From: Chloroflexota bacterium
GTDB taxonomy: Bacteria; Chloroflexota; Dehalococcoidia; UBA2979
Assembly (NCBI GenBank): GCA_026713865.1
Contig: JAPONQ010000014.1
Location: 1-64,000 of the forward strand
Length of the DNA stretch: 64,000 bases
Direction: 5' to 3'
Shown here: piece by piece, positions 15,376 through 40,821 of the stretch
How positions within the stretch are numbered: position 1 is the stretch's first letter
Layout of the letters: the number at the start of each line of letters is the position of its first letter
Notes under the pieces: model-generated
Database searches by the model: none
The model's input: only the letters and a program-made list of their open reading frames with translations
Told to the model about the DNA's origin: nothing
Translations under genes and position numbers: made by a program

Positions 15376-16479
15376 ATGCGCTTCGGGACCTTCCACCTGC
15401 CGCTCTCCCCGAGCCCCGCCGACGACCGCCGGGTGATCGAGGAGCAGCTGCGGCAGATCGAGGCCGCCGAGTCGCTGGGCTTCGACTACGCCTGGCTCAC
15501 CGAGCACAACTTCACCGGAGAGAGCGGCTACGCCGATCCGATCGTCTTCGGGGCCGCGCTCTCGCAGCGGACGAGCCGCATCCGCGTCGGCTTCGCCGTG
15601 GTGCAGATGGCGATCCATCACCCGACGCGGCTCCTGATCCAGACGAGCCTGCTCGACAACCTGCTCGACGGCCGGCTCACGATCGGCATCGGGCGCGGCT
15701 CCGCCTTCAACGAGTACGAATACGTCGCCTTCGGCGTGCGCTCCGACGGCCAGCGCGAGCGCATGTTCGAGGCCATCGAGCTGATGGAGCGCGCCTGGGC
15801 CGGCGACAACACCCCCTACGAGGGGGAGCACTTCCAGCTGCGGATCCCGGGGGTCCGGCCCACCCCGGTGCAGAAGCCCCATCCGCCGCTGGTGCTCTCG
15901 GTGCTCTCGGACGACACGGTGGCGTGGGCCGCCGCGCGCGGCTACCCGATCATGATGCCGCGGCTCGCCCTCGCCCGCGCCACCGAGCGGCTCGCCTTCT
16001 ACCGCCGGTCGCTGGAGGAGGCGTCGCTCGGACGTGCCGAGGTCGAGCATGCGCTCGACGCCTGCACGCTGCAGCGCAGCGTCTACGTCGCCGCGACCGA
16101 CGAGCAGGCCCACGCGGACGTGCAGGAGGCGACCTTCCGCCTCCACGGCCACCTGCAGCACTCGCGCCAGACCTTCAACCCCGCGGACGTCGACAACCGG
16201 TCGCGCGCGGCGCAGAACGCCTCCCAGAAGTGGAGCTCGCCCGACTCGACGCCGGAGGAGGCGGTCGCCGACCTGATCTCGCGCGGCTTCATCCTCGGCT
16301 CCCCCGAGACGGTGCGCGGCGAGCTGCGGGAGATCCGCGACGCCGGCGTGCGCGGCATGATGCTCTCGTTCACCTGGGGCGACCTCTCGCACGAGATGGT
16401 GCTGCGCTCGATGGAGCGCTTCGGCCGCGAGGTGATGCCGGAGTTCGCGACCGAGGCCGCCGGCGTGGGCTCCGCCTGA
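15376..16479 (+). CDS. Luciferase-like (LLM) flavin-dependent oxidoreductase
   Basis: A 367-residue TIM-barrel monooxygenase of the bacterial luciferase family, FMN- or F420-dependent. Typical segments are MRFGTFHLPLSPSP, ESLGFDYAWLTEHNF, VGFAVVQMAIHHPTRL, LTIGIGRGSAFNEYEY, HPPLVLSVLSDDTVAWAAARG and FILGSPETVRGELREI. I chose the ATG at 15376, with GAGGAG upstream, over an earlier GTG-type start. The substrate could be an alkane, ketone, aromatic or sulphonate. A second member lies 1.6 kb downstream, separated only by the CoA-transferase. Confidence 0.9.
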   Translation: MRFGTFHLPLSPSPADDRRVIEEQLRQIEAAESLGFDYAWLTEHNFTGESGYADPIVFGAALSQRTSRIRVGFAVVQMAIHHPTRLLIQTSLLDNLLDGRLTIGIGRGSAFNEYEYVAFGVRSDGQRERMFEAIELMERAWAGDNTPYEGEHFQLRIPGVRPTPVQKPHPPLVLSVLSDDTVAWAAARGYPIMMPRLALARATERLAFYRRSLEEASLGRAEVEHALDACTLQRSVYVAATDEQAHADVQEATFRLHGHLQHSRQTFNPADVDNRSRAAQNASQKWSSPDSTPEEAVADLISRGFILGSPETVRGELREIRDAGVRGMMLSFTWGDLSHEMVLRSMERFGREVMPEFATEAAGVGSA

Positions 16480-17999: not shown

Positions 18000-18073
18000 C
18001 GAACGGGCGCCCTCCGGCCGGACGGTGGGGCGGGGCCTCTCCCGCGCGCGGCTCCCGCGCGCGGGGTGCCGGC

Positions 18074-18080
18074 ATATATA
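18074..18080 (+). promoter_or_regulatory. Candidate -10 (ATATATA)
   Basis: An AT-rich hexamer (TATATA) stands out in otherwise GC-rich DNA, about 37 bases before the second luciferase-like gene. The transcription start would be near 18087. Confidence 0.45.
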
Positions 18081-18116
18081 GTGCGGCGGCCGTCCGCGGG
18101 CGAAGGAGGAGACGCC

Positions 18117-19133
18117 ATGGTCGAGAAGATCGGGATCGCGCCGCTCGAAGTCAGCGCCACCGAGGCCATAGGACTCGTCCGCCGCGCGGAGGCGAGCGGC
18201 TTCGAGAGCGCCTGGACCTCGGGGAGCCACGGCTACCTGCGCATCGCCGCGTTCGCGCAGCACACCGAGCGCATCACGCTGGGGACGGCCGTGGTCGTGC
18301 AGCCCCTGATCAACCCGGTCGCGCACGCCGACATGATCACCGACCTCGGAGAGCTCACCGGCGGGCGCGCCGTCGCCGGCATCGGATCAGGGGTCAGGCC
18401 CCAGCTCAACCGCTTCTACGGGATCCTCGGCGATCAGGCCGAGCACCCCGCGCCGCGCATTCGGGAGTTCCTCGAGCTGCTCCGCGAGCTGACGACCAAC
18501 GAGGGGCGCATCCAGTGGGAGCGGCGCTTCTTCCGCCTGCAGGGCGCGCGCGGATACCGGCCCGCCAACCCGGTCCCGGTCTATCTCGCGGCCGTCAACA
18601 AGCTCTCGCTGCGCGTCGCCGGTGACCTGGCGGACGGGCTGATCGGTCATCCGATCAACAGCGTCCAGTACCTGCGGGAGACGATCATCCCCACCATCAG
18701 CGAACGCCTCGATGCCGGTGGGCGGCCGCGGGAGAGCTTCTCCTTCACCTCCGACGTCGTGACCACCATCAACGAGGATCGCGCCGTCGCGCGACGCGAC
18801 GCGGCGATCACGCTCGGCTTCTATCTCTCTCCGCGCGCCTTCGACTGCATCTTCGACGCGGGCGGGTGGGAGGAGGAGAAGCGACAGGTGCGCGACGCGT
18901 TCCGCAGCGGCGAGATGGAGAACGTCGCCGACGCCGTCACCGATCGCATGCTCGAGTCGTGCTGCCTCGTCGGCACGCCGGCCGAGGTGCGCGATCAGGC
19001 GCAGCGCTACGACGGCCTGCTCGACCGCATCATCTTCTACTCGCCGCGTCACGCCGTTCCGCTCGAGCGGCACATGAAGAACTACCAGGGCATCCTCGAG
19101 ACCTTCGCCCGCCCGGTGCCGCCGGCGAGCTAG
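18117..19133 (+). CDS. Luciferase-like (LLM) F420/FMN-dependent oxidoreductase
   Basis: A 338-residue luciferase-family TIM barrel, shorter than the one at 15376 and closer to F420-dependent enzymes. Features are GIAPLEVSATEAIGLVRRAE, ITLGTAVVVQPLINPVAHA, GRAVAGIGSGVRPQLN and CLVGTPAEVRDQAQRYDG. The C-terminal part has an unusually cysteine-rich ESCCLVG. I chose ATG 18117 behind AAGGAGGAG. Its own promoter lies upstream, so it may be controlled apart from the CoA-transferase. Substrate unknown. Confidence 0.88.
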   Translation: MVEKIGIAPLEVSATEAIGLVRRAEASGFESAWTSGSHGYLRIAAFAQHTERITLGTAVVVQPLINPVAHADMITDLGELTGGRAVAGIGSGVRPQLNRFYGILGDQAEHPAPRIREFLELLRELTTNEGRIQWERRFFRLQGARGYRPANPVPVYLAAVNKLSLRVAGDLADGLIGHPINSVQYLRETIIPTISERLDAGGRPRESFSFTSDVVTTINEDRAVARRDAAITLGFYLSPRAFDCIFDAGGWEEEKRQVRDAFRSGEMENVADAVTDRMLESCCLVGTPAEVRDQAQRYDGLLDRIIFYSPRHAVPLERHMKNYQGILETFARPVPPAS

Positions 19134-22364: not shown

Positions 22365-23261
22365 ATGCCGTACGCCACCGCCTCCGACGGCGTCCGCCTG
22401 TACTACGAGGAGACCGGCGAGGGGATACCCGTCGTCTTCGTGCACGAGTTCGCCGGAGACCACCGCAGCTGGGAGCCGCAGGTACGCCATTTCGGGAGGC
22501 GCTACCGGGCGGTCGCCTACTCCGCCCGCGGGTACCCGCCCTCCGACGTGCCGGAGGCCCGGTCGAGCTACTCGCAGGAGCGCGCCGTCGACGATGTGCG
22601 CGACGTGCTCGACGCCATCGGAGCCGATCGCGCGCATGTCGTCGGGCTCTCCATGGGCGGCTACGCGACGCTCGTCTTCGGACTGACCTACCCGGAGCGC
22701 GCGCGCTCGCTCACCGTCGCCGGAGCCGGCTACGGCAGCACCGCCGACCGATCCGACTTCGAGCGCGACGTCGAGCGGGTCGCCGAGCGCCTGCTCGCCG
22801 AGGGAATCGAGGCGTTCGGGGAGATCTACACTCGGGGTCCGACGCGCGTGCAGCTCCGCGACAAGGATCCGCGCGGGTGGGAGGAGTTCCGGTCGCAGTT
22901 CCGGGGCTCCTCGACCACCGGCCACGCCAACACGATGCTGGGCGTGCAGCGCAACCGCCCCTCGATCCTCGCGCTCGAGGAGAAGCTCCGGGGGCTCACC
23001 GTCCCGACCCTGATCGTGACCGGCGACGAGGACGAGCCCTGCCTCGAGCCCGGGCTCTTCATGAAGCGGGCGATCCGATCCTCGGCGCTGGTCGTGCTTC
23101 CGCGCTCCGGACACACCGTCAACCTGGAGGAGCCGGCGGCCTTCAACCGCGCCGTCGAGGACTTCCTGGCGGCGGTCGACGCCGGCAGCTGGCGACAGCG
23201 CAACCCGGAGAGCCTCTCGGAGTCCCAGCTGCTGCCCGCCGGAGAGCGCGAGCGTGACTAG
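22365..23261 (+). CDS. Alpha/beta hydrolase with intact catalytic triad
   Basis: A 298-residue hydrolase. VVFVHEFAGDHRSW (oxyanion strand), GLSMGGYATL (nucleophile Ser), VTGDEDEPCLEPG (Asp) and PRSGHTVNLEEP (His) give a complete triad. ATG after GAGAGGAG. Its last codons overlap the GTG of the CaiB-type gene by eight bases, so it is the first gene of a long plus-strand operon. It may release the acid that the CoA-transferase then activates. Confidence 0.88.
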   Translation: MPYATASDGVRLYYEETGEGIPVVFVHEFAGDHRSWEPQVRHFGRRYRAVAYSARGYPPSDVPEARSSYSQERAVDDVRDVLDAIGADRAHVVGLSMGGYATLVFGLTYPERARSLTVAGAGYGSTADRSDFERDVERVAERLLAEGIEAFGEIYTRGPTRVQLRDKDPRGWEEFRSQFRGSSTTGHANTMLGVQRNRPSILALEEKLRGLTVPTLIVTGDEDEPCLEPGLFMKRAIRSSALVVLPRSGHTVNLEEPAAFNRAVEDFLAAVDAGSWRQRNPESLSESQLLPAGERERD

Positions 23262-25826: not shown

Positions 25827-27017
25827 ATGGACTTCGCGCTCGACGCCGGGCAGGAGGCGTTCCGCGCCGAGCTCTGCGGATTCCTCTCCTCCGAGCTCAG
25901 CGACGAGGTGCGCGCGAGCCATCGCGACCCGCGCGAGTGGGACGGCTGGGAGGCGACCTTCGCCGGCGAGTTCCGCCGGCGCCTCGGCGCCCGCGGCTTC
26001 ATCGGCGCCACCTGGCCCGTCGAGTACGGCGGCGGCGGTCGCGACGCGAGGGAACGCGTCATCTTCGCGGAGGAGATGGAATACCACGACGCTCCCGCGT
26101 TCGACCGCTCCGTCACCTACGTGCCGGACGCCATCCTCCAGTTCGGGAGCGAGGCGCAGAAGCGCGACTTCCTCCCGCGCCTGGCCCGCGGCGAGTGCAC
26201 CTTCTTCCTCGGCTACAGCGAGCCCGACGCCGGATCGGATCTCGCGAGCCTGCAGGCGCGCGCCGAGGCACGGGGCGACACCTTCATCGTGACGGGCCAG
26301 AAGGCGTACTCCTCCGGCGCCGACCGCGCCGACTACGGGTGGGTCGCGGCCAGGACCGACCCCGAGGCGCCGAAGCACCGCGGCATCTCGCTCTTCATCG
26401 TCGACATGGCGAGCCCGGGCATCGAGATCGCCCGCCACGAGACGACGGCGGGATGGGAGCATCACTCCGTCGCCTTCGACTCGGTCGAGGTGCCGCGATC
26501 GGCGCTCGTGGGCGAGCTCAACGGGGGCTGGCGCGTCATCATGGGCGCCATCGATGCCGAGCGCGCCTCGCTCGCCGCCCCCGGTCTCCTCCGCGCGCAG
26601 CTCGACCGGCTCACCGAGCACTGCCGCCGGGCGCCCGCGGGCGGCGAGGCGGGCGGGGGCGTGCTGCTCGACGATGCGGCCGTGGCGGATCGCCTCGCGC
26701 GGCTCGCTATAGAGGCCGACGCCGCACAGCTCATCTCCTACTGGGTCGCCTCGCTGATCGCGGCCGGCGAGAGGCCCCAGCACGAGACCTCGCTCGCCCT
26801 GCTCGTCAAGCGCGAGACGGCGCGCGCGCTCGACGTGGCGGCGCTCGAGCTGCTGGGGGCCGGCGGCGCCCTCCGGCCCGAGGCGCCGGCGGCGGCGCTG
26901 GGAGGCTCCGTCCTGCGCGAGTATCTCGATCACCTCTACTTCCACTTCGCGGCGGGAGGCTTCGACATCACGCGCAACGTGATCGCGACGAGGGGGCTGG
27001 GCCTGCCGCGCGGGTAG
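25827..27017 (+). CDS. Acyl-CoA dehydrogenase (large subunit-like of a pair)
   Basis: A 396-residue flavin enzyme that introduces an alpha-beta double bond into an acyl-CoA. The sequence shows ATWPVEYGGGGRDARERVIF, FFLGYSEPDAGSDLASLQ (the flavin/substrate loop), FIVTGQKAYSSGAD and the C-terminal DITRNVIATRGLGLPRG. ATG at 25827 behind GGGAGGAG. It is followed 25 bases later by a second, more divergent member, as in heteromeric alpha2beta2 dehydrogenases of steroid side-chain breakdown. Confidence 0.92.
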   Translation: MDFALDAGQEAFRAELCGFLSSELSDEVRASHRDPREWDGWEATFAGEFRRRLGARGFIGATWPVEYGGGGRDARERVIFAEEMEYHDAPAFDRSVTYVPDAILQFGSEAQKRDFLPRLARGECTFFLGYSEPDAGSDLASLQARAEARGDTFIVTGQKAYSSGADRADYGWVAARTDPEAPKHRGISLFIVDMASPGIEIARHETTAGWEHHSVAFDSVEVPRSALVGELNGGWRVIMGAIDAERASLAAPGLLRAQLDRLTEHCRRAPAGGEAGGGVLLDDAAVADRLARLAIEADAAQLISYWVASLIAAGERPQHETSLALLVKRETARALDVAALELLGAGGALRPEAPAAALGGSVLREYLDHLYFHFAAGGFDITRNVIATRGLGLPRG

Positions 27018-27042: not shown

Positions 27043-28200
27043 ATGGACCTGGTAGCGAGCGAGGAGCAGCGACTGCTGCGCGACGCCGCCCTGCTCTTCG
27101 CGCGCGAGCGCATGGGGCACGAGCGGGCGCGCGCCCTCGAGCAGCGCGCCGCCGCGGGCGACCACGCGCACGACGCCGAGCTCGCCTCCGAGCTCGGCTC
27201 GCTCGGCTGGAGCGGCGCGGCGCTGCCGGCGGCGCAGGGCGGCGAGGGTCTCGGACTGCTCGAGCTCGCGCTCGTGATCGAGGCCTGCGGGACGGCGCCT
27301 CTCCCCACCACGCTCTTCGGGAGCGTCGTCGAGGCGGGGCTGCTGATCGCCGGCGGGGGGAGCGATGAGCAGCGGGCCCGCTGGCTGCCCCGGATCGCAG
27401 CCGGCGAGGCGGTGCTGACGGCGGCGCTGCTGGAGCAGGAGGGGGAGTTCGCGGCGAGCGCGCTCCGGACACGGGCGGAGCCGCGCGCGGGCGGCGGCTA
27501 CCGTATCGAGGGCGCCAAGGTGCTGGTCCGGGACGCCGGCGCCGCCGACGCGGTGATCGTCGCGGCGCGCGACGACTCCGCCGGGCAGGCGCCCGGGGTG
27601 AGCCTGCTTCTCGTCGAGCGCGGCACGCCGGGGCTGGAGCTGCGGCCGCAGCCCCCGGCCGCGGGCGAACCCCTCTTCTCGCTCCGCCTCGACGGCGTCG
27701 AGGTCGGGCAGGAGGCGCTGCTGGGACCCCCCGGCGCCGGGCGGGAGCACGTCGAGCGGCTGCTGGCGCGGGGCGCCGCCCTGAAGGCGGCGGAGCTCGT
27801 GGGGATCGGCCAGGCGGCGCTCGACCTCACCCTCGACTACGCCCGGGAGCGGACGCAGTTCGGGCGCCCGATCGGCTCCTTCCAGGCGGTGCAACATCAC
27901 TGCGCCGACATCTACCGCGAGGTCGCCGCGTGCCGCCTTCTCGCCTACCGGGCCGCGTGGTCGCTCGACCGCGCCGACGGCGAGCTGCCGCCATCGGCGG
28001 TGCGCCGCGCCGTCGCCTCGGCCAAGGCGAAGGCGAGCGAGGCGATACCGTGGGCGACGCGCCTCGCGCACCAGGTACACGGCGGCGTCGGCTACTACCG
28101 CGACTACCCGCTGGAGATCTTCACGCGGCGCGCGATCGCGGCGGCGGCGGCCTACGGCGATGCGCGCTACCATCGGCGGCGGCTCGCCGGGGTGCTCTAG
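27043..28200 (+). CDS. Acyl-CoA dehydrogenase (second, divergent subunit of a pair)
   Basis: A 385-residue acyl-CoA dehydrogenase-fold protein. The N-terminal and middle domains are poorly conserved: the substrate loop reads ALLEQEGEFAASALRTRAE, with no EPxAGSD motif. The C-terminal FAD contact RTQFGRPIGSFQAVQHHCAD and HQVHGGVGYYRDYPLE are well kept. This split of conserved elements between two adjacent genes is typical of obligate heteromers. Neither partner alone may be active. The next crotonase begins 22 bases downstream. Confidence 0.9.
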   Translation: MDLVASEEQRLLRDAALLFARERMGHERARALEQRAAAGDHAHDAELASELGSLGWSGAALPAAQGGEGLGLLELALVIEACGTAPLPTTLFGSVVEAGLLIAGGGSDEQRARWLPRIAAGEAVLTAALLEQEGEFAASALRTRAEPRAGGGYRIEGAKVLVRDAGAADAVIVAARDDSAGQAPGVSLLLVERGTPGLELRPQPPAAGEPLFSLRLDGVEVGQEALLGPPGAGREHVERLLARGAALKAAELVGIGQAALDLTLDYARERTQFGRPIGSFQAVQHHCADIYREVAACRLLAYRAAWSLDRADGELPPSAVRRAVASAKAKASEAIPWATRLAHQVHGGVGYYRDYPLEIFTRRAIAAAAAYGDARYHRRRLAGVL

Positions 28201-28222: not shown

Positions 28223-29038
28223 ATGGACTACGAGTACCTGCAGCTCGAGCAGAGCGACGACGGCGTCGTCACCCTCTGGATCGACGATCCCGAGAACAAC
28301 AACGCCGTCAATTTCGTGATGAACCGCGAACTCGCGGACGCCATCGAGCGCATCGACGAGGACGATGCGGCCAGGGTCCTCGTGCTGACCGGACGCGGCC
28401 GCATCTTCTGCTCGGGCGGGAACATCGGCCAGATGACGGCGCAGGGACGCTCGCTCGAGCCGGATGAGAAGACGCTTCGCGAGCGGCTCCACCCCGCCGA
28501 GTCCGACATCCGCCGCGTCACGGTCGCGCTCCGGCGCATGTCGAAGCCGGCGATCGCCGCCGTCAACGGACCGGCCGTGGGCTCCGGGGTCGGCCTCGCC
28601 GCGGGCTGCGACGTCAGGCTCGCGGCGCCGGAGGCGCGCTTCGGCTGGGTCTTCACGCGGCGCGGCATCCTCCCCGACGACGGAAGCCTCAAGCTCGTGC
28701 TCGACATCCTCGGCTACGCCCGCACGTTCGAGTGGGGGGTCAGGGGCGGCCGGCTCGAGGCCGACGAGGCACTCCGCTGGGGCTTCGTCTCGGAGGTCGT
28801 CGCCCAAGAGCAGCTGCTCCCGCGCGCCCGCGCCCTCGCCCGCGAGATTATCGCCTCCGTCCCGCCGCTCACGGCCCGCCTCTTCAAGCTCGCGCTGGTC
28901 GATGCGCTCGATCGCCCGCTGGAAGAGGCGATCCGCTTCACCGAGCGGGCACAGCAGCTCGCCCGCGAGAGCGAGGATCACACGGAGGCCCTGCGCGCGT
29001 ATGCGGAGCGCCGGCCACCCGGCTGGTCGGGACGCTGA
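28223..29038 (+). CDS. Enoyl-CoA hydratase/isomerase family protein
   Basis: A 271-residue crotonase. Oxyanion segments are FCSGGNIGQM and NGPAVGSGVGLAAGCD. The two hydratase glutamates are replaced, but the acidic residues of RGILPDDGSLKLVL occupy the isomerase-type site. I chose ATG 28223 behind GAGGAG. It sits where hydration of the enoyl-CoA made by the preceding dehydrogenase pair would be expected. The RidA-type gene starts two bases after its stop. Confidence 0.88.
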   Translation: MDYEYLQLEQSDDGVVTLWIDDPENNNAVNFVMNRELADAIERIDEDDAARVLVLTGRGRIFCSGGNIGQMTAQGRSLEPDEKTLRERLHPAESDIRRVTVALRRMSKPAIAAVNGPAVGSGVGLAAGCDVRLAAPEARFGWVFTRRGILPDDGSLKLVLDILGYARTFEWGVRGGRLEADEALRWGFVSEVVAQEQLLPRARALAREIIASVPPLTARLFKLALVDALDRPLEEAIRFTERAQQLARESEDHTEALRAYAERRPPGWSGR

Positions 29039-29040
29039 GC

Positions 29041-30213
29041 GTGACCGGGAACGCGCCGCTGAAGAGGGCGATCGAGCCCGCGAGCTTCCCCTGGATGGAT
29101 GCCTCGCGCTACGCCTTCTGCCTCGCCATGGAGGCCGGCGGCGCCACCTGGCTCTCGGGCCACACCGCGGCCCGCTACGAGCCGGGGCGCGACGTCGTTA
29201 CCGCCGAGGGCGATCTCGAGGCGCAGAGCCGCATCGTCTACGAGAAGGCGCGCGTGATCCTGGAGGCCGCCGGCCTCGGATTCGACGACGTCGCGCACAG
29301 CATCGAGTACCTGGCCCCGGGAGCGCTCGGAGCCGGGGACGCGCGATGCCTCGCCGACCTCCGGGGAGAGCACTTCGGCGCCCACCGCCCCGCCCTCTCG
29401 ACCGTCGCCGTCAAGTCCCTGCTGCGCCCCGAGGCCCTCGTCGAGATCGAGCTCGTCGCGCGCCCGGGCGGAGGCGAGACCGTCGAGGCGGCCGGAACGC
29501 TGGCCCGGCGGGGCGGCGACCTGCTCGTGATCCCCGCGCTCGACGCGCCCGGAGACGATCTCGGCTCGCAGACCCGGGCCATCTACGACCGCGCCGCCCG
29601 GGTGCTCGACGCCGCCGGACTCGGTTGGGAGCACGTGGTCAAGACCACCGACTTCCTGGACGTCTCGGCCCTGCGCGACTACCGCGTGACGGCCGACGTG
29701 CGCCGCGAGCGCTTCGGAGCGCACGACGCCTCCGAGTTCCCCGCCTCCACGGGGATCATCATGGAGCGCCTCGCGACGCCGGGCGCCCTCATCCAGGTGG
29801 AGTTCATCGCCTCGACGAGGCCGCGCGAGGGGATCGCGGCGCCGTGGCCCCACCACCCGCGTCTCACCTACGCGCCGGCGGTGCGCGCCGGCCAGTTCCT
29901 CTTCATCTCGGGCATGGCCGCCTTCAACCCCGAGACGAACGCGACCGAGCACGAGGGCGACGTCATCGCCCAGTCGCGTTATGTATACGAGAACATCGCT
30001 CGCCTGATGGAGGCGGCCGGGGGCTCGCTCGAGAACGTGATCAAGACCGTCGAGTACGTCGCACCCGCCGCCGCCGAGCGCTACCCGCGAACCGGTCGCG
30101 TCCGGACCGACCTTTTCGATCGCCCCTATCCCGCCTCCACGGGCGTCATCTGCGAGCGCCTCATTCGCTCCGACCTTCTCATTGAGGTCGACGCCATCGC
30201 GGTGCTGCCGTGA
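29041..30213 (+). CDS. Triple-domain RidA (YjgF/YER057c/UK114) family protein
   Basis: A 390-residue protein that I read as three RidA domains in tandem, about 20-145, 150-265 and 275-390. Each has a strand-helix pattern such as VYEKARVILEAAGLGFDDV, IYDRAARVLDAAGLGWEHV and VYENIARLMEAAGGSLENV, and ends with PALSTVAVKSL, PASTGIIMERL and PASTGVICERL. RidA is normally about 130 residues, trimeric, and deaminates enamines/imines using an Arg in the PxR segment. That Arg is absent from all three domains. One chain could therefore replace the trimer, with three different inter-domain clefts. GTG start; coupled to neighbours on both sides. Confidence 0.9.
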   Translation: MTGNAPLKRAIEPASFPWMDASRYAFCLAMEAGGATWLSGHTAARYEPGRDVVTAEGDLEAQSRIVYEKARVILEAAGLGFDDVAHSIEYLAPGALGAGDARCLADLRGEHFGAHRPALSTVAVKSLLRPEALVEIELVARPGGGETVEAAGTLARRGGDLLVIPALDAPGDDLGSQTRAIYDRAARVLDAAGLGWEHVVKTTDFLDVSALRDYRVTADVRRERFGAHDASEFPASTGIIMERLATPGALIQVEFIASTRPREGIAAPWPHHPRLTYAPAVRAGQFLFISGMAAFNPETNATEHEGDVIAQSRYVYENIARLMEAAGGSLENVIKTVEYVAPAAAERYPRTGRVRTDLFDRPYPASTGVICERLIRSDLLIEVDAIAVLP

Positions 30214-30740
30214 GCGATGCCTCCCCGGGGGCGTCGCTGCTCACCGACGAGCTCCGCGGCTGGATCGGGCGCGAGGCCTCCTACGAGGCGCCCGAGGAGC
30301 TCGGGCGCGCCGCCATCCGCTACTACGCGCTGGCGCTCTCCGACGACAACCCGCTCTACCGCGACGACTCTCATGCCCGGAGCACGCGCTTCGGCGGCGT
30401 GATCGCGCCCCCGACGCTGGTGGTCGAGACGAACCAGTACGCCGACCTGCCGCTCCGCCCCGAGGACGGGTACAACGGCCACGTCTGGGAGGGCCTGCCC
30501 CTCCCCGTGCCGTGTACGCTGGTGCGCGGCGGGAACGAGTACGAGCTGCTCCGGCCGGTCCGACCCGGCGACCGCCTCCTCGTGCGCTGGCGCATCGAGG
30601 AGATCAGCGAGCGTCGCGGCCGGGCCGGCCCCCTGCTCGTGCTGGTCGCGCGCGCCGAGTACCGCAACCAGCACGGCGAACTGCTCGCAACCAACCTCGA
30701 CACGACGATCTTCCTGCCCGACGGCGGAGGGGGCTCGTGA
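30210..30740 (+). CDS. MaoC-N / FAS1-like dehydratase, first half of a split hydratase
   Basis: A 176-residue single hotdog of the FAS1-like dehydratase type: ALALSDDNPLYRDDSHARS, FGGVIAPPTLVVETNQY and YELLRPVRPGDRLLVRWRI. It overlaps the RidA-type gene by four bases and the following MaoC gene by one. Together the two small genes equal the fused double-hotdog protein encoded at 14352-15224. They probably form a heterodimer that hydrates an enoyl-CoA, with the catalytic residues mainly in the second half. Confidence 0.87.
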   Translation: MSDASPGASLLTDELRGWIGREASYEAPEELGRAAIRYYALALSDDNPLYRDDSHARSTRFGGVIAPPTLVVETNQYADLPLRPEDGYNGHVWEGLPLPVPCTLVRGGNEYELLRPVRPGDRLLVRWRIEEISERRGRAGPLLVLVARAEYRNQHGELLATNLDTTIFLPDGGGGS

Positions 30741-31168
30741 TGCGCTTCGATGAGGTGAAGCCCGGCCAGGAGCTCCCCGAGCTGCGCGTCGCGCTCACCC
30801 ACGAGCTGCTCGCCGCGTACGCCGGCGCGACCTGGGACTTCCACCGCTACCACTACGACGCCGACTTCGCCCGCGAGGTGGCCGGCGCTCCCGACGCGTT
30901 CGTCGACGGCCAGATGCTGGGCGCACTGCTCGCCCGGCAGCTGATGGCCTGGTCGGCGCCGGAGGGCTGGGTGCGGCGCCTCGCCCTCCGCTACCGCTCG
31001 ATGTCGTTCCCCGGCGAGACGCTCGTCTTCTCAGGGAGCGTGCGCGCCACCCGCGTCGAGGGCGCCAGCGGGCTCACCGAGCTGGATCTCACCGTGACCG
31101 CTCTCGACGGGCGCGATGTCGCCGTACCGGCGAGCGCCACCGTCGAGCTGCCCGCGACCGTGCAGTAG
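30740..31168 (+). CDS. MaoC-type dehydratase, second half of a split hydratase
   Basis: A 142-residue hotdog with FHRYHYDADFAREVAG, holding the catalytic His and Asp of hydratase-2 proteins, followed by FVDGQMLGALLARQL. I took the ATG at 30740, which shares its A with the upstream TGA; a GTG three bases earlier would give GTGA coupling. It is the partner of the 176-residue protein just before it. It probably follows the crotonase/dehydrogenase step or acts on an alternative enoyl-CoA. Confidence 0.87.
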   Translation: MRFDEVKPGQELPELRVALTHELLAAYAGATWDFHRYHYDADFAREVAGAPDAFVDGQMLGALLARQLMAWSAPEGWVRRLALRYRSMSFPGETLVFSGSVRATRVEGASGLTELDLTVTALDGRDVAVPASATVELPATVQ

Positions 31169-31183: not shown

Positions 31184-31972
31184 ATGACGGACGGAGCGGA
31201 GGCGGCCGTCCTCTTCGAGGCCGACGGACACGTCGCCCGCATCACGCTCAACCGGCCGCACGCGATGAACGCGCTCGACACGGCGGCCCGGGAGCCGCTG
31301 CTCGAGGCGATGACGCGCGTCCACGAGGACCCCGGGATCCGCGTCGGGATCCTGACCGGCGCCGGCGGCCGCGCCTTCAGCGCGGGCGCCGATCTCAAGG
31401 AGTGGGCGCGGCCGGACTCGCCCGGCTTCTCCGGGGGTTCCGCGCAGGACGCCCTCGCCAAGGAGCCGGGCGACGAGTTCTTCACGATCCGCGTGGCCAA
31501 GCCGCTGATCGCCGCGATCGACGGCTACTGCCTGGCGGGAGGACTCGAGCTCGCCCTCGCCTGCGACCTGCGCATCGCGACGCCCGCCTCCTCCTTCGGC
31601 CTCCCGGAGGTGCAGCGCGGCTTCCCGCCGGGCGGCGGAGGGGTGCAGAGGCTGGTGCGCGCGATCTCCCTCGCGCCGGCGATGGAGATGCTATTGACGG
31701 GTGAGCGCATCGACGCCGAGACGGCGCTTCGCTGGGGCCTGGTGTCACGCCTCGTCCCCAGCGAGGAGCTGCTGGCCACCGCCACCGATCTCGCCGAGCG
31801 CATCGCGGCGAATGCGCCCCTCGCCACACGCGTCGTCAAGGAGCTCGCGCTCGCGAGCCCCGATCAGCCGCTCGGACAGGCGCTGCAACTCGGAAGCGTG
31901 CTGCGCTGGATCGTGGGGCAGACGCCCGAGGCACAGGAGGGTCCGCGCGCTTTCGCGCGGGGCGACGGCTAG
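31184..31972 (+). CDS. Enoyl-CoA hydratase
   Basis: A 262-residue crotonase with both catalytic glutamates of the hydratase type, in LAGGLELALACD and FGLPEVQRGFPPGGGG. The oxyanion motif FSAGADLKEW is standard. Of the three general crotonases in the window it is the one best equipped for true enoyl-CoA hydration. ATG after GGAGGAGG, 15 bases behind the MaoC gene, so it is part of the same plus-strand operon. Confidence 0.92.
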   Translation: MTDGAEAAVLFEADGHVARITLNRPHAMNALDTAAREPLLEAMTRVHEDPGIRVGILTGAGGRAFSAGADLKEWARPDSPGFSGGSAQDALAKEPGDEFFTIRVAKPLIAAIDGYCLAGGLELALACDLRIATPASSFGLPEVQRGFPPGGGGVQRLVRAISLAPAMEMLLTGERIDAETALRWGLVSRLVPSEELLATATDLAERIAANAPLATRVVKELALASPDQPLGQALQLGSVLRWIVGQTPEAQEGPRAFARGDG

Positions 31973-33575: not shown

Positions 33576-34037
33576 TCAGCGCGGCCGGTGCGGCAGCTCC
33601 ACGACGGCCGTCCCCTGGAGCGGGCGCTCCCCGCGCTCGTTCTCCAGGTATACGTCGAGCGTCACCCGGCCGATGCCCGACTCATCGGAGGCGTCGGTCA
33701 CAAGCGCCATCAGCCGGAGGCGGTCCCCGTGCAAGACGGGCCGGCGGAAGTTCGCGTCGAGCGTGCGCAGCCGTCCGGCGGGCCCGGCCCAGTCGGTCAC
33801 GAGCCGGGTGATGATCGAGAGGCTCATCACGCCCGGCACGATCGGTCGCTCGAGCCCGAGCGCCTGCGCGCCCGCGGCATCGGAGAAGCGGCCGTCCTCG
33901 TCGTCGAGCTGTGCATTGCCCCGCGAGACGGAGAGGTAGGTCTCGACCAGCTCCGGCCGGGCGACGTAGGACTCCTCGAACTCGTCTCCGAGTTCGGCAT
34001 CGCCGAAATAGCGCTGCTCGGTGCCCGTGAGGCTCAT
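33576..34037 (-). CDS. MaoC-like hotdog protein, second half of a pair, catalytic His replaced
   Basis: A 153-residue MaoC-type hotdog. The family motif NPxHxDxxxA reads NAQLDDEDGRFSDAAGA, so the His is replaced while an Asp remains. The following ERPIVPGVMSLSIITRL is standard. It overlaps the FAS1-like gene upstream by four bases, giving the same two-gene architecture as at 30210-31168. It may have lost hydratase activity or use a different base, and it could be a thioesterase-like variant. Confidence 0.82.
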   Translation of the reverse strand: MSLTGTEQRYFGDAELGDEFEESYVARPELVETYLSVSRGNAQLDDEDGRFSDAAGAQALGLERPIVPGVMSLSIITRLVTDWAGPAGRLRTLDANFRRPVLHGDRLRLMALVTDASDESGIGRVTLDVYLENERGERPLQGTAVVELPHRPR

Positions 34038-34483
34038 GCCTCGATCTCCCGGTGCACCATCGAACTGTCGACGAGGGCGACGTCCCGGCCGTTCTGGTTC
34101 TCGTAGCGGGTCCGGCGCACCACGAACACCATCTTCCCGCTGCGCCCGGTCTTCTCGTAGACCTCGGTCACCTGGCCGTAGGCCGTGATGGTATCGCCCG
34201 GACGCATCGGCTCCAGCACCTCGATGCGCTCCCCGCCCAGGAAGCGGGCGTTGCCGAAGTCGACCTGCGGGTCGGCGCCGGTTCCGCGGAAGTTGGCCGT
34301 CGTGAAGATGAGGGGCGGCGCGATGCGGCCGCCGTAACCCGTGCCGCTCGCGAAGTCCTCGTCGAGATAGAGCGGATTGGTCTCGCCGAGCGCCTCGCAG
34401 TAGGCATCAATCGCGGCGTCGGTAACGGTGAACGAGCCGAGCCTGTGCTCGACGCCGATCACGCTCTCGTCGTAGTCGACCAC
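34034..34483 (-). CDS. MaoC-N / FAS1-like dehydratase, first half of a pair
   Basis: A 149-residue hotdog with GETNPLYLDEDFASG, YGGRIAPPLIFTTANF and EVLEPMRPGDTITAYGQV, as in FAS1-like dehydratases. I placed the start at GTG 34483 because CGAGGAGGGG lies just upstream; an ATG five codons earlier has no proper ribosome site. It should dimerise with the product of the overlapping gene at 33576-34037. It is monocistronic with that gene, SRPBCC and DoxX lying downstream. Confidence 0.84.
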   Translation of the reverse strand: MVDYDESVIGVEHRLGSFTVTDAAIDAYCEALGETNPLYLDEDFASGTGYGGRIAPPLIFTTANFRGTGADPQVDFGNARFLGGERIEVLEPMRPGDTITAYGQVTEVYEKTGRSGKMVFVVRRTRYENQNGRDVALVDSSMVHREIEA

Positions 34484-34521
34484 GGCCCCTCCTCGCATCC
34501 CTCCGGCGCCGGCACGACCGC

Positions 34522-35289: not shown

Positions 35290-36858
35290 TCAACGGACGG
35301 GCGGCGCCGGATCCCCGCCCGCCAGCCGCTCCCGGACCGAGCGGCGCAGCAGCTTTCCTGACGCCGTCCGCGGAAGGGAGCCCTCCCAGGGCTCGAGCCG
35401 GCGGGGGAGCTTGTAGCCCGCCAGCCGCCGCCTCAGGAAGGCCTCGAGCTCGGAGGCCCGGAGCGGGCGGTCCCCGGTCGGCACGATGGCGGCGACCACG
35501 ATCTGGCCCCACCGCTCGTCGGGCAGTCCCACCACCGCGCCCTCCGCGACCGCCGGGTGCGCGGCGAGCGCTCCCTCCACCTCGGCCGGGTAGACGTTCT
35601 CACCGCCGCTCACGACCAGATCGTCCCGGCGGTCGGCGACCGTGAGATGGCCGTCGGCATCGAGCGATCCCAGGTCGCCGGTGCGGAGCCAGCCCCCCTC
35701 GCGGCGCTCCGGCGCAGCGTTCAGGTAGCCGGGCGAGATGGTCGGGCCCGAGACCAGGATCTCGCCGACCTCACCGGGTCCGGCGCGGCGCCCGTCTACA
35801 TCGACAGCCACCGAGACGCCGAGCAGGGGCTGCCCCGAGGAGCGAGGGCGCCGGCTCGCTCCGCCGGGGGCGAGCGTCGTCACCTGCGATGCCGCCTCCG
35901 TCAGACCGTACGTCGGCGCGACCGGGAGCCCCCGCTCCTCCGCCCGCGACAAGAGCTCCGGGGCGGCGCCGGCGCCGCCGATGAGGACGGCCCGCACCGA
36001 CGCGGGATACGGGGAGGGGTCCCGATCGTGGTCGAGCAGCCGCCGCAGCATCGCCGGCACCAGCGAGGCGAGGGTCACACCCTCCCCCCGCAGCGCGCGG
36101 CTGACGGCGGATTCGTCGAAGCGGCGGTGGACGACCGCCGTCGTCCCGGCCAAGACCGACCGGACGAGGATCGAGAGACCGCCGACATGGTAGAGCGGGA
36201 GCGGGGCCAGCCACCGATCCTCCGCCCGCACGCCGAGGTGGAAGGCCGAGCCGAGCGCGCTCGCGAGCAGGTTGCCGTGGGTGAGGAGGGCCGCCTTCGG
36301 CCGCCCCGAGGTGCCGGAGGTGTAGATCGCGCTGTGCACCGAGTCGAGGTCGACGAGCGGCTCGGCGCGAGCCTCGCCGGGACCGACCGCGGTCGCCCCG
36401 CCGCCGCCCGTAAACGCCTCCGCGGGACGCAGCGCGGGAGCCGGCGCGCCGAGCCGCTCCGCCTCTGCCAGCGCCTCATCCGCGAGCGCCCGGTGCTCCT
36501 CGTCGACGAGCAGAAGCCGCGTCCGGGAGTCCCGGAGCTGCCACGCGATCTCTGCCGCGGTCAGGCGGGCGTTGAGCGGCACCAGGACGCCCCCCGCCCG
36601 CGGCACGGCATGCGAGAGGATGCACAGCGCGGCGTCGTTCGCGGCGAGCACCGCGACGGGCCCGCCGGCGGCGGGCTCCTCCCGCTCCGCACGGAGCGCG
36701 CGGGCGGCCCGGGCGACGCCGGCATCGAGCTCGCCGTAGGGGAGCGTCCCGGAGGGCGTCTCGACGGCCGGATGCTCGCGGTGGGTCCGGGCGCGCCGCG
36801 CCAGCCAGTCGGGGACCAGGCGCCGCGCCCGCGCCTCCTCGGCCGCGCCGGTGGTCAC
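35290..36858 (-). CDS. menE: o-Succinylbenzoate--CoA ligase MenE
   Basis: A 522-residue adenylate-forming enzyme that activates o-succinylbenzoate with ATP and CoA. The P-loop YTSGTSGRPKAALLTHGN, the A5 motif PTYGLTEAASQ, the hinge RTGDLG and the catalytic Lys in PRTASGKLLRR are all intact. Identification as MenE rests on context: it is the last gene of menF-D-H-B-A-C-E. The GTG start overlaps menC by four bases. On sequence alone another acyl-CoA ligase would be possible. Confidence 0.88.
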   Translation of the reverse strand: MTTGAAEEARARRLVPDWLARRARTHREHPAVETPSGTLPYGELDAGVARAARALRAEREEPAAGGPVAVLAANDAALCILSHAVPRAGGVLVPLNARLTAAEIAWQLRDSRTRLLLVDEEHRALADEALAEAERLGAPAPALRPAEAFTGGGGATAVGPGEARAEPLVDLDSVHSAIYTSGTSGRPKAALLTHGNLLASALGSAFHLGVRAEDRWLAPLPLYHVGGLSILVRSVLAGTTAVVHRRFDESAVSRALRGEGVTLASLVPAMLRRLLDHDRDPSPYPASVRAVLIGGAGAAPELLSRAEERGLPVAPTYGLTEAASQVTTLAPGGASRRPRSSGQPLLGVSVAVDVDGRRAGPGEVGEILVSGPTISPGYLNAAPERREGGWLRTGDLGSLDADGHLTVADRRDDLVVSGGENVYPAEVEGALAAHPAVAEGAVVGLPDERWGQIVVAAIVPTGDRPLRASELEAFLRRRLAGYKLPRRLEPWEGSLPRTASGKLLRRSVRERLAGGDPAPPVR

Positions 36859-38039
36859 GACCCGGCCAGGGCGCCGCCGGCCGCCGCCTCGATCGACGCG
36901 CCGGGTGCGCTCGCCTGCGACCAGGGCCCGGTCGCACAGCGCTCAATCGCCGACGCCACGGGCGCGATGCCGAGCCCGGGACGCGCGGGGAGCGTCATGC
37001 GCCCTCCCCCCGGCAGGAGCGGCGTCGCGACGAGATCGTCGGCGAAGAGGAGGCCGGTGGAGAGCCCGTGTGCGCGGCCGGACCCGACCCGCGCGCCGGC
37101 GGAGGCGGCATCCGTCTCGATCGAGGCCGCAAGCTGCAGCGCCAGCGCGGTCCCCAGCGAGGAGTCGATCGTCGTGGTGACGACGGCGCCGATTCCCGCG
37201 GAGCGCGCGCGTGCGGCAAGCCGTGCCGCCGCGACCACGCCGCCCAGCACGGCCGGCTTCAGGACGAGCACGTCCGCGGCGCGCTCCTCGATCACGCGCT
37301 CGGCGAGCCGCGCCTCCGCGAGCGTCTCATCGGCGGCCACGGGAATCGCCGAGAGCTCCCGCAGTCGCCGCAGGCCCGGCACGTCGCCGGCGGGCAGCGG
37401 CTCCTCGATGAACTCGATGTCGAGCGGCTCGAGGCGCCGCACGGCGCGCCGCGCGAGCTTCTCGTGCCACGCGCCGTTCGCGTCGAGCCGGATGCGGGCG
37501 CCGGGACACTGCTGACGCAGCGCCCCGGCGCGGGCAAGGTCGGCGTCCACACCCTGCACGCCGACCTTGAGCTTCACAGCGCCGAAGCCGCTGTCGACGA
37601 GGGCGCGGCCGGTCTCCGCCACCTGATCCGGCGTCGCACGGTCGCCGCCGATCACGGCGTTCACGTCGAGCGAGGCGCCCGGCGGCGGCGGCTCCCCGGA
37701 GGCCGTGAGGAGCGCGGCCAGGGGCACGCCGCGGCTCTGCGCGGCGAGATCGAGCAGCGCCGACTCGAGAGCGCAGCGGAGCACCGGCGGCGCGCGCTGA
37801 GGCTCCGCCAGGAGTGCCGGCCCCTCCAGCGCCAGCAGCCCGGCAAGATCGGCTGCAGCCGGCTGGCCCGGAAGCGGGAGCGGAAGCGCCTCGCCCCACC
37901 CCGTCGCCGCTCCGTCCCCCACCGCCAGCACCAGTCCCTCGCGCGCGCCGAGGTCGCCCGCGGCGCCGGCGAGGGCGGAGCGGTGCGACCGCGTCAGCGC
38001 GAGACGCACCGGGCGCCAGCGAAGCCGCAGTCCGGTCAT
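36855..38039 (-). CDS. menC: o-Succinylbenzoate synthase MenC
   Basis: A 394-residue enolase-superfamily enzyme that dehydrates SHCHC to o-succinylbenzoate. The catalytic set is complete: VKLKVG (KxK lysine), RLDANGAW, EFIEEPL and AADETL (metal ligands), and VLKPAVLGG (second lysine). N-acylamino-acid racemase or dipeptide epimerase homologues share these motifs, but the men operon fixes the role. I chose ATG 38039, where the substrate-capping domain begins. The C-terminal 25 residues form an Ala/Gly-rich tail overlapping menE. Confidence 0.9.
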   Translation of the reverse strand: MTGLRLRWRPVRLALTRSHRSALAGAAGDLGAREGLVLAVGDGAATGWGEALPLPLPGQPAAADLAGLLALEGPALLAEPQRAPPVLRCALESALLDLAAQSRGVPLAALLTASGEPPPPGASLDVNAVIGGDRATPDQVAETGRALVDSGFGAVKLKVGVQGVDADLARAGALRQQCPGARIRLDANGAWHEKLARRAVRRLEPLDIEFIEEPLPAGDVPGLRRLRELSAIPVAADETLAEARLAERVIEERAADVLVLKPAVLGGVVAAARLAARARSAGIGAVVTTTIDSSLGTALALQLAASIETDAASAGARVGSGRAHGLSTGLLFADDLVATPLLPGGGRMTLPARPGLGIAPVASAIERCATGPWSQASAPGASIEAAAGGALAGS

Positions 38040-38082
38040 CGCGATCGTGCCACCGGGGATGCGCCGGGCGAGTCGTCGCGGG

Positions 38083-39018
38083 TCACAGCGCGACACCGAG
38101 CGCGAGCAGCGCGCTGAAGAGCAGGTGGAGCTGCGCCGTCTCGCGAAGGGCCTGGTTGAGCGAGGGACCGTCGGTCTCCCGCAGCACCAGGCGGCCCGGC
38201 CGCATCGCGAACGGGAGGCTCAGCGCGACCAGCAGCACCCACGAGGCGAAGGGCCCGGCCAGCCAGAGCGAGGCCGCCAGCGCGTAGGCGCCGGCGACGA
38301 GCGCGAGGAAGAGCGCGCGGGTGCCGCGGCGGCCGATGAGCACCGCGAGTGTGCGCTTTCCGGTCGCGCGGTCGGTCTCGATATCGCGCACGTTGTTCAC
38401 GACCAGGATCGCCGTCACGGTGCAGCCGACCGGCAGCGCCGCCTGGAGGACGCCCCCTCCCCACGAGCCCGCCTGCACGAAATAGGTTCCCCCCACGGCG
38501 ATCAGGCCGAAGAAGACGAAGGTGAAGGGCTCGCCGAGTCCGCGGTAGCCGAAGGCCCAGGGACCACCGCTGTAGGCGAGAGCCGCCGCTATAGAGGCAA
38601 GCCCGATCGCGACGACGGGCCAGCCCGCGACGGCGGTCAGATACACCCCGCAGAGGGCGGCGAGCGCGAAGGCGATCCACATCGCGGCGAGCACCTGGCG
38701 CTCCGAGAGCAGCCCGAGCTGCGTGACGCGGGGCGGACCGATGCGCGCGGCCGTATCCGCGCCCTTGCGGAAGTCCGAGACGTCGTTCGCGAGATTGGCT
38801 CCGATCTGGATCGCGACCGCCCCGGCGAGCGCGGCGAGCGCGGGGCCCACCGCGAAGCGCTCGGCCCCCACGGCGAGCCCGCTTCCGACCAGGACCGGCG
38901 CCACCGAGGCGGTCAGGGTCGGAGGGCGGATGGCCAGCAGCCAGCGCTCCCCGATGCCCGGAGGGGCCCCCGGAAGCCCGTGTGCCGCCTGCGTGGGACC
39001 GCCGCCCCCGGCGCTCAC
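38083..39018 (-). CDS. menA: 1,4-Dihydroxy-2-naphthoate polyprenyltransferase MenA
   Basis: A 311-residue UbiA-family membrane prenyltransferase that joins the isoprenoid tail to DHNA. It has about eight to nine hydrophobic segments. The first Asp-rich motif is [11 protein letters not shown], the second [20 protein letters not shown]; both bind the Mg-diphosphate. VTQLGLLS and [17 protein letters not shown] are MenA-like. I placed the start at GTG 39018, with GGTGGGGA upstream; GTG 39030 is the alternative. It is inserted between menB and menC, completing the pathway to demethylmenaquinone. Confidence 0.92.
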
Positions 39019-39076
39019 CGGAGTCCCCACCGGCCCGGCGAAGGCCGCGCGGTCCGGCCGCCCGGGCGTGCGTGCA

Positions 39077-39910
39077 TCAGGGGAGGCGCGGGAAGCGGGT
39101 GAAGTCCGGGTCGCGCTTCTCCAGGAACGCGCGCTTCCCCTCCTTCGCTTCGTCGGTGAAGTAGAAGAGCATGGTCGCGTCCCCGGCGAGCTGCTGCAGT
39201 CCCGCCGCGCCGTCGGTATCGGCCAGGAAGCCTGCCTTGAGCATTCGGATCGCGATCGGCGAGTGGCGCAGGATCTCCAGCGCCCACCGCTCGCCTTCCC
39301 CGGCGAGCTGGTCGAGAGGAACGACGGCATTGACGAGGCCCATCTCGAGCGCCTGCTGCGCATCGTACTGGCGGCAGAGGTACCAGATCTCGCGCGCCTT
39401 CTTGTGCCCGACGATGCGGGCGAGCATCGACGCGCCGAAGCCCGCATCGAAGGAGCCGACGCGCGGGCCGGTCTGCCCGAAGCGCGCGTTGTCGGCGGCG
39501 ATCGTGAGATCGCAGACCACGTGCAGCACGTGCCCGCCTCCGATCGCCCAGCCGGCGACGAGCGCGATCACCGGCTTCGGCATCGTCCGGATGAAGCGCT
39601 GCAGGGGCAGGACGTTGAGGCGGGGAATGCCGTCGTCGCCGACGTACCCTCCCTCCCCGCGAACGCGCTGATCGCCGCCGGAGCAGAAGGCGCGGCCCCC
39701 GGCACCGGTGAGCAGCACCACGCCGACGTCAGGATCGTCGCCGGCCAACTCGAAGGCCCGCGACATCTCGGTCAGGGTCAGCGGGCGGAAGGCGTTGTGC
39801 ACCTCCGGGCGGTTGATCGTGATCCGCGCCACGCCCGCGCCGGGCCGAACGACGGCGCGCTCGTAGAGGATGTCGTGAAAGCTCTCGACGGGCTGCCAGT
39901 CCAGCGTCAT
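39077..39910 (-). CDS. menB: 1,4-Dihydroxy-2-naphthoyl-CoA synthase MenB
   Basis: A 277-residue crotonase that closes the ring of o-succinylbenzoyl-CoA. The MenB-specific segments are unmistakable: [49 protein letters not shown] and [19 protein letters not shown], and the C terminus [22 protein letters not shown] start with GGGGAC upstream; four-base overlap with menH. Confidence 0.97.
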
Positions 39911-40821
39911 CTTGTCCCCATCGCTTCTCCCCGACGCGTTTCCTCGGCCGCGTCCACGCCGCCGAGGAAACGCAGCACAGCCCGGGCGAAGGCCTGCGGC
40001 CGCTCCAAGTGCGCGGCGTGCCCGGCGCCCTCGATCGGCTCCATCGTAGCGTTCGGGAGCGCTCGCGCCATCTCATGGGCGATCGCCGTGAACTTCCCGT
40101 CGAGGCTGCCGGCGACGAGCAGCGTCGGCGAGCGGAGCGAGCCGAGCTCCTCCCAGAGAGAGGGCTGCCGTCCGACGCTCATTCCCCGCAACGCCCGGGC
40201 GAGGCCGGCCGCGGTGTTCCCGAGGCGCTGCGCGCGCAGCCGCTCCCTCACCGCGGCAGGCAGGGAGCGCTGCGACTCCCAGAGGGGCAGCCTCTCCCAC
40301 TCATCGACGAAGGCGGCGACACCGTGCCGCTCGATGCGGCCGGCCAGCGCATCGTCGGCCCGCGCGCGCCCGACGCGCTCGCCCTCGTCCGCCAGGCCGG
40401 CGGTCGCCCCCTCGAGCACCAGTGCCGCGACGCTCTCCGGGTGCCGGGCGGCGAGCAGCAGCGCCACCCGACCCCCCATCGAGTAGCCGAGCCACCGGGC
40501 CCGCCGGTGGCCCAGCTCCCCGAGCAGCACGACCAGATCGTCGGCGACGCGCTCGATGGCGTAGCGAGCCTCCGCCTCCGGCGCGTCGCTCGCACCGTGC
40601 CCGACCAGGTCGACTGCGACGACCGGATGGCCCGCCTCCGCAAGCGAGGTCGCGAGGGCGTCCCAGGTCGAGGCGGAGCCGGTCAGGCCGTGCAGCAGGA
40701 CGACCGGGAGGCCAGCCGTCGCGGGCGCCCCGCGGGCGGGCGCGCGGCGCTCCACGTGGAAGGCGACGCCGTCGACCGCGAGGCGCCGCGCGCCCGCCCG
40801 CTCGTCCTCCCGCTTCCTCAT
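39907..40821 (-). CDS. menH: SHCHC synthase MenH (alpha/beta hydrolase fold)
   Basis: A 304-residue alpha/beta-hydrolase-fold lyase that eliminates pyruvate from SEPHCHC. The triad is Ser in [12 protein letters not shown], Asp in AGSLDGKF and His in [28 protein letters not shown] and [14 protein letters not shown] are typical of MenH. It is coupled to menD by ATGA and to menB by a four-base overlap. The size is slightly above the usual 250-270 residues owing to an N-terminal and a C-terminal extension. Confidence 0.92.

Follow-up and report, generated by a model that had tools for sequence, protein, structure and literature searches.

One gene in a 64,000-nucleotide stretch of Chloroflexota DNA (the window) joins three Rid domains in a single chain, which very probably folds into an intramolecular pseudo-trimer. 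None of the three domains has the arginine of RidA-type deaminases at place 105, and all of them have an arginine at place 91. Judging by gene content, the gene forms part of a conserved catabolic cluster, with monooxygenases, a hydrolase, a CaiB-type transferase, crotonases and a MaoC pair. Tentatively, and with somewhat less than even confidence, we read the protein as a catabolic enzyme and not a sensor: a single-chain Rid pseudo-trimer with two clefts of the R91 type.

The open reading frame runs on the forward strand from a GTG at 29041 to a stop codon at 30211-30213 (Table 1). The gene is tightly packed. The stop of the preceding crotonase ends 2 bases ahead of the GTG, and the GTG of the next gene (30210) overlaps the stop. 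Pfam finds only Rid domains in the 390-residue protein; PF01042 matches it in three stretches, at 135.1 bits (cut-off 27.3), which places it in the Rid superfamily. The domains are true repeats, with mutual BLASTP E values of 2e-16 to 6e-19 and 33-39% identity. The initial annotation, made from the sequence alone, had proposed three fused Rid domains in one chain, and three PF01042 stretches in one frame agree with this.

Table 1 The three-domain Rid gene, its domains, selected codons and the neighbouring genes of the window. Place numbers follow an alignment to E. coli RidA, the sequence of which is identical to PDB 1qu9.
Feature	Position	Strand	Remarks
Luciferase-like monooxygenase LLM1	15376..16479	+	PF00296; 55-56% identical in G019/G005
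Luciferase-like monooxygenase LLM2	18066..19133	+	PF00296; 60-61% identical in G019/G005
Alpha/beta hydrolase, PcaD/RutD-like	22365..23261	+	PF00561; 59-60% in G019/G005
Two-domain class III CoA-transferase, CaiB type, 818 aa	23254..25710	+	PF02515, 2 stretches, 610.4 bits
Acyl-CoA dehydrogenase	25827..27017	+	Best NCBIfam match PimC, under cut-off
Acyl-CoA dehydrogenase	27043..28200	+	Best NCBIfam matches AcrC, PimD, under cut-offs
Crotonase 1 (enoyl-CoA hydratase/isomerase)	28223..29038	+	PF00378
Three-domain Rid protein, 390 aa, single ORF	29041..30213	+	PF01042; AF2 model
Rid domain 1, about residues 14-140	29080..29460	+	Leu119 at Arg105 place; Arg108 at 91; Gly40; Glu135 at 120
Arg108 codon, place 91, domain 1	29362..29364	+	Arg in 13/14 relatives; position computed from residue number
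Rid domain 2, about residues 144-258	29470..29814	+	Ser236 at Arg105 place; Arg221 at 91; Gln252 for Glu120
Arg221 codon, place 91, domain 2	29701..29703	+	Arg in 13/13 aligned sequences; Ser in G658
Gln252 codon, place of RidA Glu120, domain 2	29794..29796	+	Gln in 8/14 including window; Glu in 6
Rid domain 3, about residues 262-390	29824..30210	+	Ser366 at Arg105 place; Arg355 at 91; Tyr277; Ser290-Gly291; Glu382
Arg355 codon, place 91, domain 3	30103..30105	+	Arg in 14/14
FAS1-type MaoC dehydratase half, HadA-like (FAS1DH)	30210..30740	+	PF13452
MaoC-like dehydratase, HadB-like	30737..31168	+	PF01575, 27.2 bits vs cut-off 27
Enoyl-CoA hydratase/isomerase 2 (crotonase 2)	31184..31972	+	PF00378

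The carboxylate of the substrate is bound by the arginine at place 105 in TdcF and in the human and plant RidA proteins (PMC4433059, PMC4960622). The active-site places of TdcF are Tyr17, Ser30, Asn88, Arg105 and Glu120 (PMC5979572, likewise PMC6435465). In the window protein the corresponding PxR region reads RPALST in domain 1, FPASTG in domain 2 and YPASTG in domain 3, that is PAL, PAS and PAS. This matches the PALST, PASTG and PASTG segments that had been read from the sequence earlier, with Leu119, Ser236 and Ser366 aligned at Arg105 of E. coli RidA. The other RidA-type residue, Glu120, is present in domains 1 and 3. Domain 2 has a glutamine at that place; its Ser30-Gly31 motif is also gone, and Pro165-Ala166 is there instead.

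Loss of Arg105 has been published for Rid4-7 and for some 10% of RidA proteins, which carry a serine (PMC4433059). Like the window protein, these lack Arg105 and keep Glu120, but the available part of that account does not mention Arg91, which all window domains carry. No tested Rid4-7 protein has deaminase activity (PMC8113886). The fusion itself was considered as the cause of the loss and rejected, as single-domain relatives such as the one in locus L013 also read FPASTG.

The two arginines were compared across relatives. In 14 related fusions (window included), 40 of the 42 domains have an arginine at place 91 and none has Arg105. Pooling 157 domains from loci and 22 from plasmids, with domain matches of 20 bits or less dropped, gives 179 domains: none with both arginines, 25 with R105 only, 106 with R91 only and 48 with neither. 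The 98 representatives below 50% identity divide, in the same order, into 0, 15, 49 and 34 (Fisher p 1.7e-5, which ignores kinship). The column most informative for R105 among the others scored is place 91, followed by 88 (120 and 124 columns). On plasmids, R105 is found in 6 of 22 domains, all 6 with Asn88 and Tyr91, and R91 in 9 of the 16 others; this set, from Pseudomonadota, Actinomycetota, Bacillota and Archaea, was drawn with an R91-type Rid query, and its rows were hand-picked for variety (16 of 40 listed in one search, 5 of 25 in another). Three Pantoea plasmids (L145, L149, L155) have Rids without Arg105 in which place 88 is Arg and place 91 is Leu; this may be a third position of the arginine.

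Because place 91 is one helix turn past the active-site place 88, the side chain of an arginine at 91 might extend into the cleft. And because domains without Arg105 mostly carry Arg91, the site may have changed without losing its function. On this alignment it is reasonable to suppose that the arginine moved; the alternative is that the pattern reflects the history of clades rather than compensation. The possibility of such a history, the 48 domains with neither arginine and the lack of a known activity among Rid4-7 count against the whole account.

An AlphaFold2 model, computed with a 13-sequence alignment, is one compact pseudo-trimer with a mean pLDDT of 91.1 and a pTM of 0.91. The best solved match along the chain is the chorismatase 4bps (Foldseek E 9e-18; VIA Z 27.8, rmsd 2.9, 288 residues). 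Single Rid chains in the structure search each match one domain. The chain is therefore predicted to be an intramolecular pseudo-trimer, given the confident model and the chain-long match to a single-chain chorismatase, and the initial annotation's proposal of such a fold survives a prediction that could have gone against it. The FBXO22 complexes 8ua6 and 8ua3 also match most of the chain, with Z 17.8 and 17.3 over 259-260 residues at 7-8% identity.

A similar arrangement has been proposed for cyanuric acid hydrolase and barbiturase, the Toblerone fold of which may be a concatenated YjgF-type trimer (PMC3758960). The active site of those enzymes, which has Ser-Lys dyads and a metal, is in a central barrel, whereas the conserved residues of the window protein are in the outer clefts. 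No AtzD or barbiturase entry was among the 50 structure matches listed, which does not speak against such a relation.

The fusion is not confined to this assembly. Three-domain relatives of equal length include G001 (85% identity), G381 (51%), G059 (42%), G019 (39%), G005 (37%), two in G039 (38% and 31%) and G135 (32%), plus G514 and G658. An assembly artefact, which would have explained the gene away, was rejected because such full-length relatives exist in nine other genomes, at identities as low as 31%.

Surveys were run more widely. Within the class, an alignment of seven triple proteins matched 40 of 393 genomes at E ≤ 1e-25; 8 of these 40, host included, matched the whole model, and the others gave partial matches from single Rids or other triple types. 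In the phylum, 4 of 400 genomes matched at E ≤ 1e-55, host included. Genome contigs searched with the window protein yielded a sister record and two single Rids. Viral contigs searched with Rid alignments held no relative. With the full protein, tblastn hit 221 plasmid records, but in none of them did a single place span at least 80% of the query.

The host genome (2.52 Mb, 119 contigs) has 12 PF01042 stretches, 9 of them within three triple ORFs. A further triple-Rid gene of the host, on contig C112 (L040:5092-7008, forward strand), has PAR in all three domains; its relatives in L048 and L052 have PAI in domain 1 and are near an amidase gene. Another, on contig C104 (L041:5615-7450, forward strand), has neighbours that fall into clusters with an amidase, an esterase and a ligase C-terminal domain protein. 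Contig C96 holds a divergent single Rid domain (L108:6306-7061, forward strand; PF01042 40 bits).

FastTree was run on 125 Rid domains of the loci, over 119 columns. In the resulting tree the domains of the window family group with PASTG-type singletons at a support of 0.969, two long-branch L058 domains included. The other triple types fall elsewhere: the type with Arg retained in its second and third domains (L040, L048, L052) has a support of 0.814, L041/L049/L053 with L058 domains 0.938, L057 (L018 in the tree) with L096, in which the three copies are alike, 1.0, and L097/L098 0.732. Because of this separation, the tree can be read as showing that triple fusion arose at least four separate times, with weak support at the deep nodes. 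The repeats in L057:3355-4686 and L096:6758-7957 (both on the reverse strand) are very similar, with a TPPCTGV or TPPCTAV motif, apparently from a recent triplication. In genome G043, two different triple-Rid genes adjoin (L058:5026-7839, reverse strand), for six Rid domains together.

By number of Rid domains, the ORFs of the fetched loci are 65 with one, 28 with three and 3 with two, plus 1 cut at a contig end; the 28 to 3 ratio is biased since most loci were fetched for their resemblance to the window protein. Three ORFs scored with 4 stretches are triples that have one split domain. The excess of three domains over two fits a closed trimer. Two- and four-domain Rid fusions were likewise described as rare, and three-domain ones as a presumed covalent trimer unit (PMC4433059). 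Two loci may encode trimers of unequal chains: in L123:1091-2408 a two-domain Rid ORF overlaps a one-domain one (2+1), and L127:2168-4229 is a row of three single and one double Rid ORFs.

The three clefts were compared with a simple wall score. Wall A comprises places 91, 103, 105 and 107, and wall B place 120 together with 30 and 31, which we take to lie on that side. In RidA, places 105/107 and 120 come from different subunits, and in the plant protein Glu180, the equivalent of Glu120, is supplied by the neighbouring subunit (PMC4960622). The weakest walls are A1 and B2 in 9 of 14 fusions (G658 also has a weak A2). They are A2 and B3 in G135b, B3 with A1 and A2 tied in G135, and A3 and B1 in G333 and G115. 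G039b, with A1 and B1, is the sole exception to a pattern of one decayed cleft.

If A(n) faces B(n+1), these residues fit the loss of one cleft and the keeping of two in 13 of 14 fusions, one of them by the tie, by a score that was defined after the alignment was seen and that rests on three lineages. Under the same pairing, the three lineages would have given up different clefts. The earlier claim that the three clefts differ is upheld by the domain alignment, which has different residues in each domain. Unequal clefts of this kind are beyond what a homotrimer could hold.

The neighbours of the gene are shown in Table 1. Their Pfam matches and the synteny support the suggestion of the initial annotation that the gene sits in a CoA-thioester operon. 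The hydrolase scores 93.8 bits with TIGR02427, under the cut-off of 255.85. Farther upstream, besides LLM1 and LLM2, are a two-subunit CoA-transferase and an amidohydrolase. A second FAS1DH/MaoC pair lies near the first on the opposite strand (33576-34498), and the reverse strand from 35290 to 44191 presumably holds a menaquinone synthesis set, which it resembles by eye (MenE, MenC, MenB, MenD and others). Relatives of the two-domain, single-chain CoA-transferase, with 806-827 residues, occur in G001, G019 and G005.

Two genomes with Rid proteins 37-39% identical (G019, G005) keep LLM1, LLM2, the hydrolase, CaiB (49-50% identity), crotonase 1 (46%), FAS1DH (39-40%), MaoC (36%) and crotonase 2 (56-58%). 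The pair of acyl-CoA dehydrogenases is absent from these two loci. Neighbours were counted by tblastn of the cluster proteins at E ≤ 1e-6. In the 10 loci of the window protein's own family (family A) besides the window, this finds MaoC/FAS1DH in 8, crotonases in 6, CaiB in 5, and acyl-CoA dehydrogenases and monooxygenases in 4 each. Four more distant fusions (L092-L095) have MaoC/FAS1DH in 1, crotonase in 1, CaiB in 2, dehydrogenase in 0 and monooxygenase in 1, and one of them has none of the cluster genes by tblastn. For 12 loci of other triple types the counts are 0, 0, 2, 3 and 3, and for 16 single-Rid loci 0, 3, 0, 2 and 1, in the same order.

The zeros in these counts are lower bounds, because Pfam found MaoC genes that tblastn missed. 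It adds a MaoC/mesaconyl-CoA hydratase gene in L050, which brings the loci with a MaoC-type gene to 9 of the 10 in family A besides the window, and a MaoC gene directly after the Rid gene in 3 of the 16 single-Rid loci (L101, L102, L105). The single Rids of those three loci have TADVRR or TAEVRR in the R91 helix and the motifs PAATG, PASTG and SAATG. The 18-kb locus of G658 has no MaoC; this gap and the missing dehydrogenase pair count against the whole account. Absent neighbours mean little because contigs vary in length.

RutA is a luciferase-like monooxygenase and RutD an alpha/beta hydrolase. RutC, which occurs with both (PMC8113886), is another Rid protein encoded alongside a monooxygenase and a hydrolase, as here. 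RutC keeps and needs Arg104 (PMC8113886), however, and the window protein is without that arginine; with the RutC profile TIGR03610 it scores 89.6 bits, against a cut-off of 169.1. RutA was not among the matches of the window's monooxygenases at E ≤ 1e-20. Two of the five plasmid loci fetched with flanks (L133 from Cupriavidus, L135 from Leisingera) have a monooxygenase, a flavin reductase, a Rid (R91, PASTG) and an alpha/beta hydrolase; in Leisingera the gene of the luciferase-like monooxygenase is on the other strand. These sets resemble the rut operon in gene make-up, but the Rid signature differs from that of RutC. The Cupriavidus monooxygenase scores best with RutA, at 282 bits (cut-off 498). 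No luciferase-like monooxygenase is annotated in L134 or L136; the fifth locus, L137, is unannotated.

In the proposed mechanism, the three domains would close into one trimer, as modelled. R91 on helix 2 would probably anchor the substrate in place of the lost Arg105, which would be dispensable if the carboxylate is already engaged in a thioester bond. The cleft of the domain 1 A wall and the domain 2 B wall would be the decayed one, and the pairs 2/3 and 3/1 those kept. LLM1/LLM2 and the hydrolase would open a ring or cleave an ester, and the CaiB transferase would put the acid on CoA. The Rid protein, the MaoC pair and the crotonases would process an unsaturated, enol or enamine acyl-CoA that arises downstream of the monooxygenases, and Glu120, retained in domains 1 and 3, may be the acid/base for water attack or tautomerisation. 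We infer here the substrate class, the roles of R91 and the glutamate, and the pairing of the walls.

Three-domain RidA fusions are not new. They were named 3x-RidA in 2015, with EF_0115 of Enterococcus faecalis as an example (Niehaus et al., PMC4433059). The window protein shares with them three Rid domains in one chain, which there is presumed to be one covalent trimer unit and here is predicted to be one. It might be an ordinary 3x-RidA, which still deaminates imines or enamines while Arg91 holds the carboxylate and the CoA genes make or use the product. Apart from the glutamate kept in domains 1 and 3, this reading has in its favour a score of 106.2 bits with TIGR00004 ('Rid family detoxifying hydrolase'), just short of the cut-off of 106.25, and the two plasmid singletons in Rut-like clusters, as RutC is a 3-aminoacrylate deaminase (PMC8113886). 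We consider it rather unlikely. RutC and RidA become inactive once the arginine is replaced (PMC8113886, PMC4433059), the neighbours that recur are CoA enzymes, and a Pfam run of 19 proteins of the window turned up neither a transaminase nor an amine oxidase family. The published 3x-RidA are a subset of RidA, whereas the window protein, likened to them through their description, has no Arg105, unequal clefts and a CoA/monooxygenase cluster. A sensor is less probable still, as is a scaffold that holds the CoA enzymes together. Either would account for the arginine missing from all three domains, the one apparently decayed cleft and the glutamine in domain 2. But two clefts retain their wall residues among relatives 37-85% identical (G658, with its weak A2, being the departure), the chain has no other Pfam domain, and the 19 neighbours run against Pfam are enzymes of known families. 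Nothing positive was found for the ligand sensor that the initial annotation had offered as an option.

The chorismatases FkbO/Hyg5 (4bps, 5ag3, 5a3k) have the same single-chain pseudo-trimeric Rid-like fold as the window protein. They are its best structure matches, and with PcaC/PcaD-like neighbours near the gene, the protein could be a related enzyme that hydrolyses or isomerises an enol ether or a cyclic dienol acid. The chorismatase profile TIGR04444 does match at residues 269-326, but at 20.9 bits, far below its cut-off of 325; identity to the chorismatase structures is only 21-22%, and in the tree, which does not include chorismatases, the fusion falls together with single Rids of the PASTG type from the class. 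This makes such an enzyme improbable. Least likely of all, at a very small chance, is a neutral fusion, in which the three domains came together by accident and add nothing to what a homotrimer can do. Tandem fusions do recur in the class, and a MaoC neighbour is also found beside some single Rids. Against this, the same two walls are weakest in most of the fusions and the glutamine at place 252 is kept in 8 of 14, an asymmetry that a homotrimer cannot hold.

The initial annotation took the pseudo-trimer, the differing clefts and the CoA operon to suggest a new enzyme, an interpretation that is partly supported. Novelty of the triple domain or of the missing arginine alone was rejected, as the available text of PMC4433059 describes each of them separately. 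In the literature searched, which covers few subscription journals, 3x-RidA appears in that paper alone, the 8 papers on the subject that it yielded mention neither Tyr91 nor Arg91, and no paper brings Rid, MaoC, CaiB and a monooxygenase together. A paper on SAR202 genomes reports many flavin monooxygenases and CaiB transferases (PMC5395668), and the available part of it has 0 occurrences of YjgF, RidA or L-PSP. The R91 pattern, the given-up clefts and the conserved cluster were thus not met in that literature, which is not proof of newness.

The preferred reading of the window protein extends, more doubtfully, to a whole class. Rids without Arg105 that carry the signature [VI]-R at place 91, on helix 2, together with P-[AVT]-[STA]-T-G could possibly form a second catalytic class, in which the arginine moved within the cleft. 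Such a class would handle intermediates of luciferase-like monooxygenases and of MaoC/crotonase enzymes, and its fused forms would have given up one cleft, differing by lineage, with two sites working.

What this provides is a handle on the function of the poorly understood Rid proteins without Arg105. The candidate replacement arginine, the cleft pattern and the conserved neighbourhood give named residues to change and defined substrates to try. And the fusion permits changing a single cleft, which a homotrimer does not.
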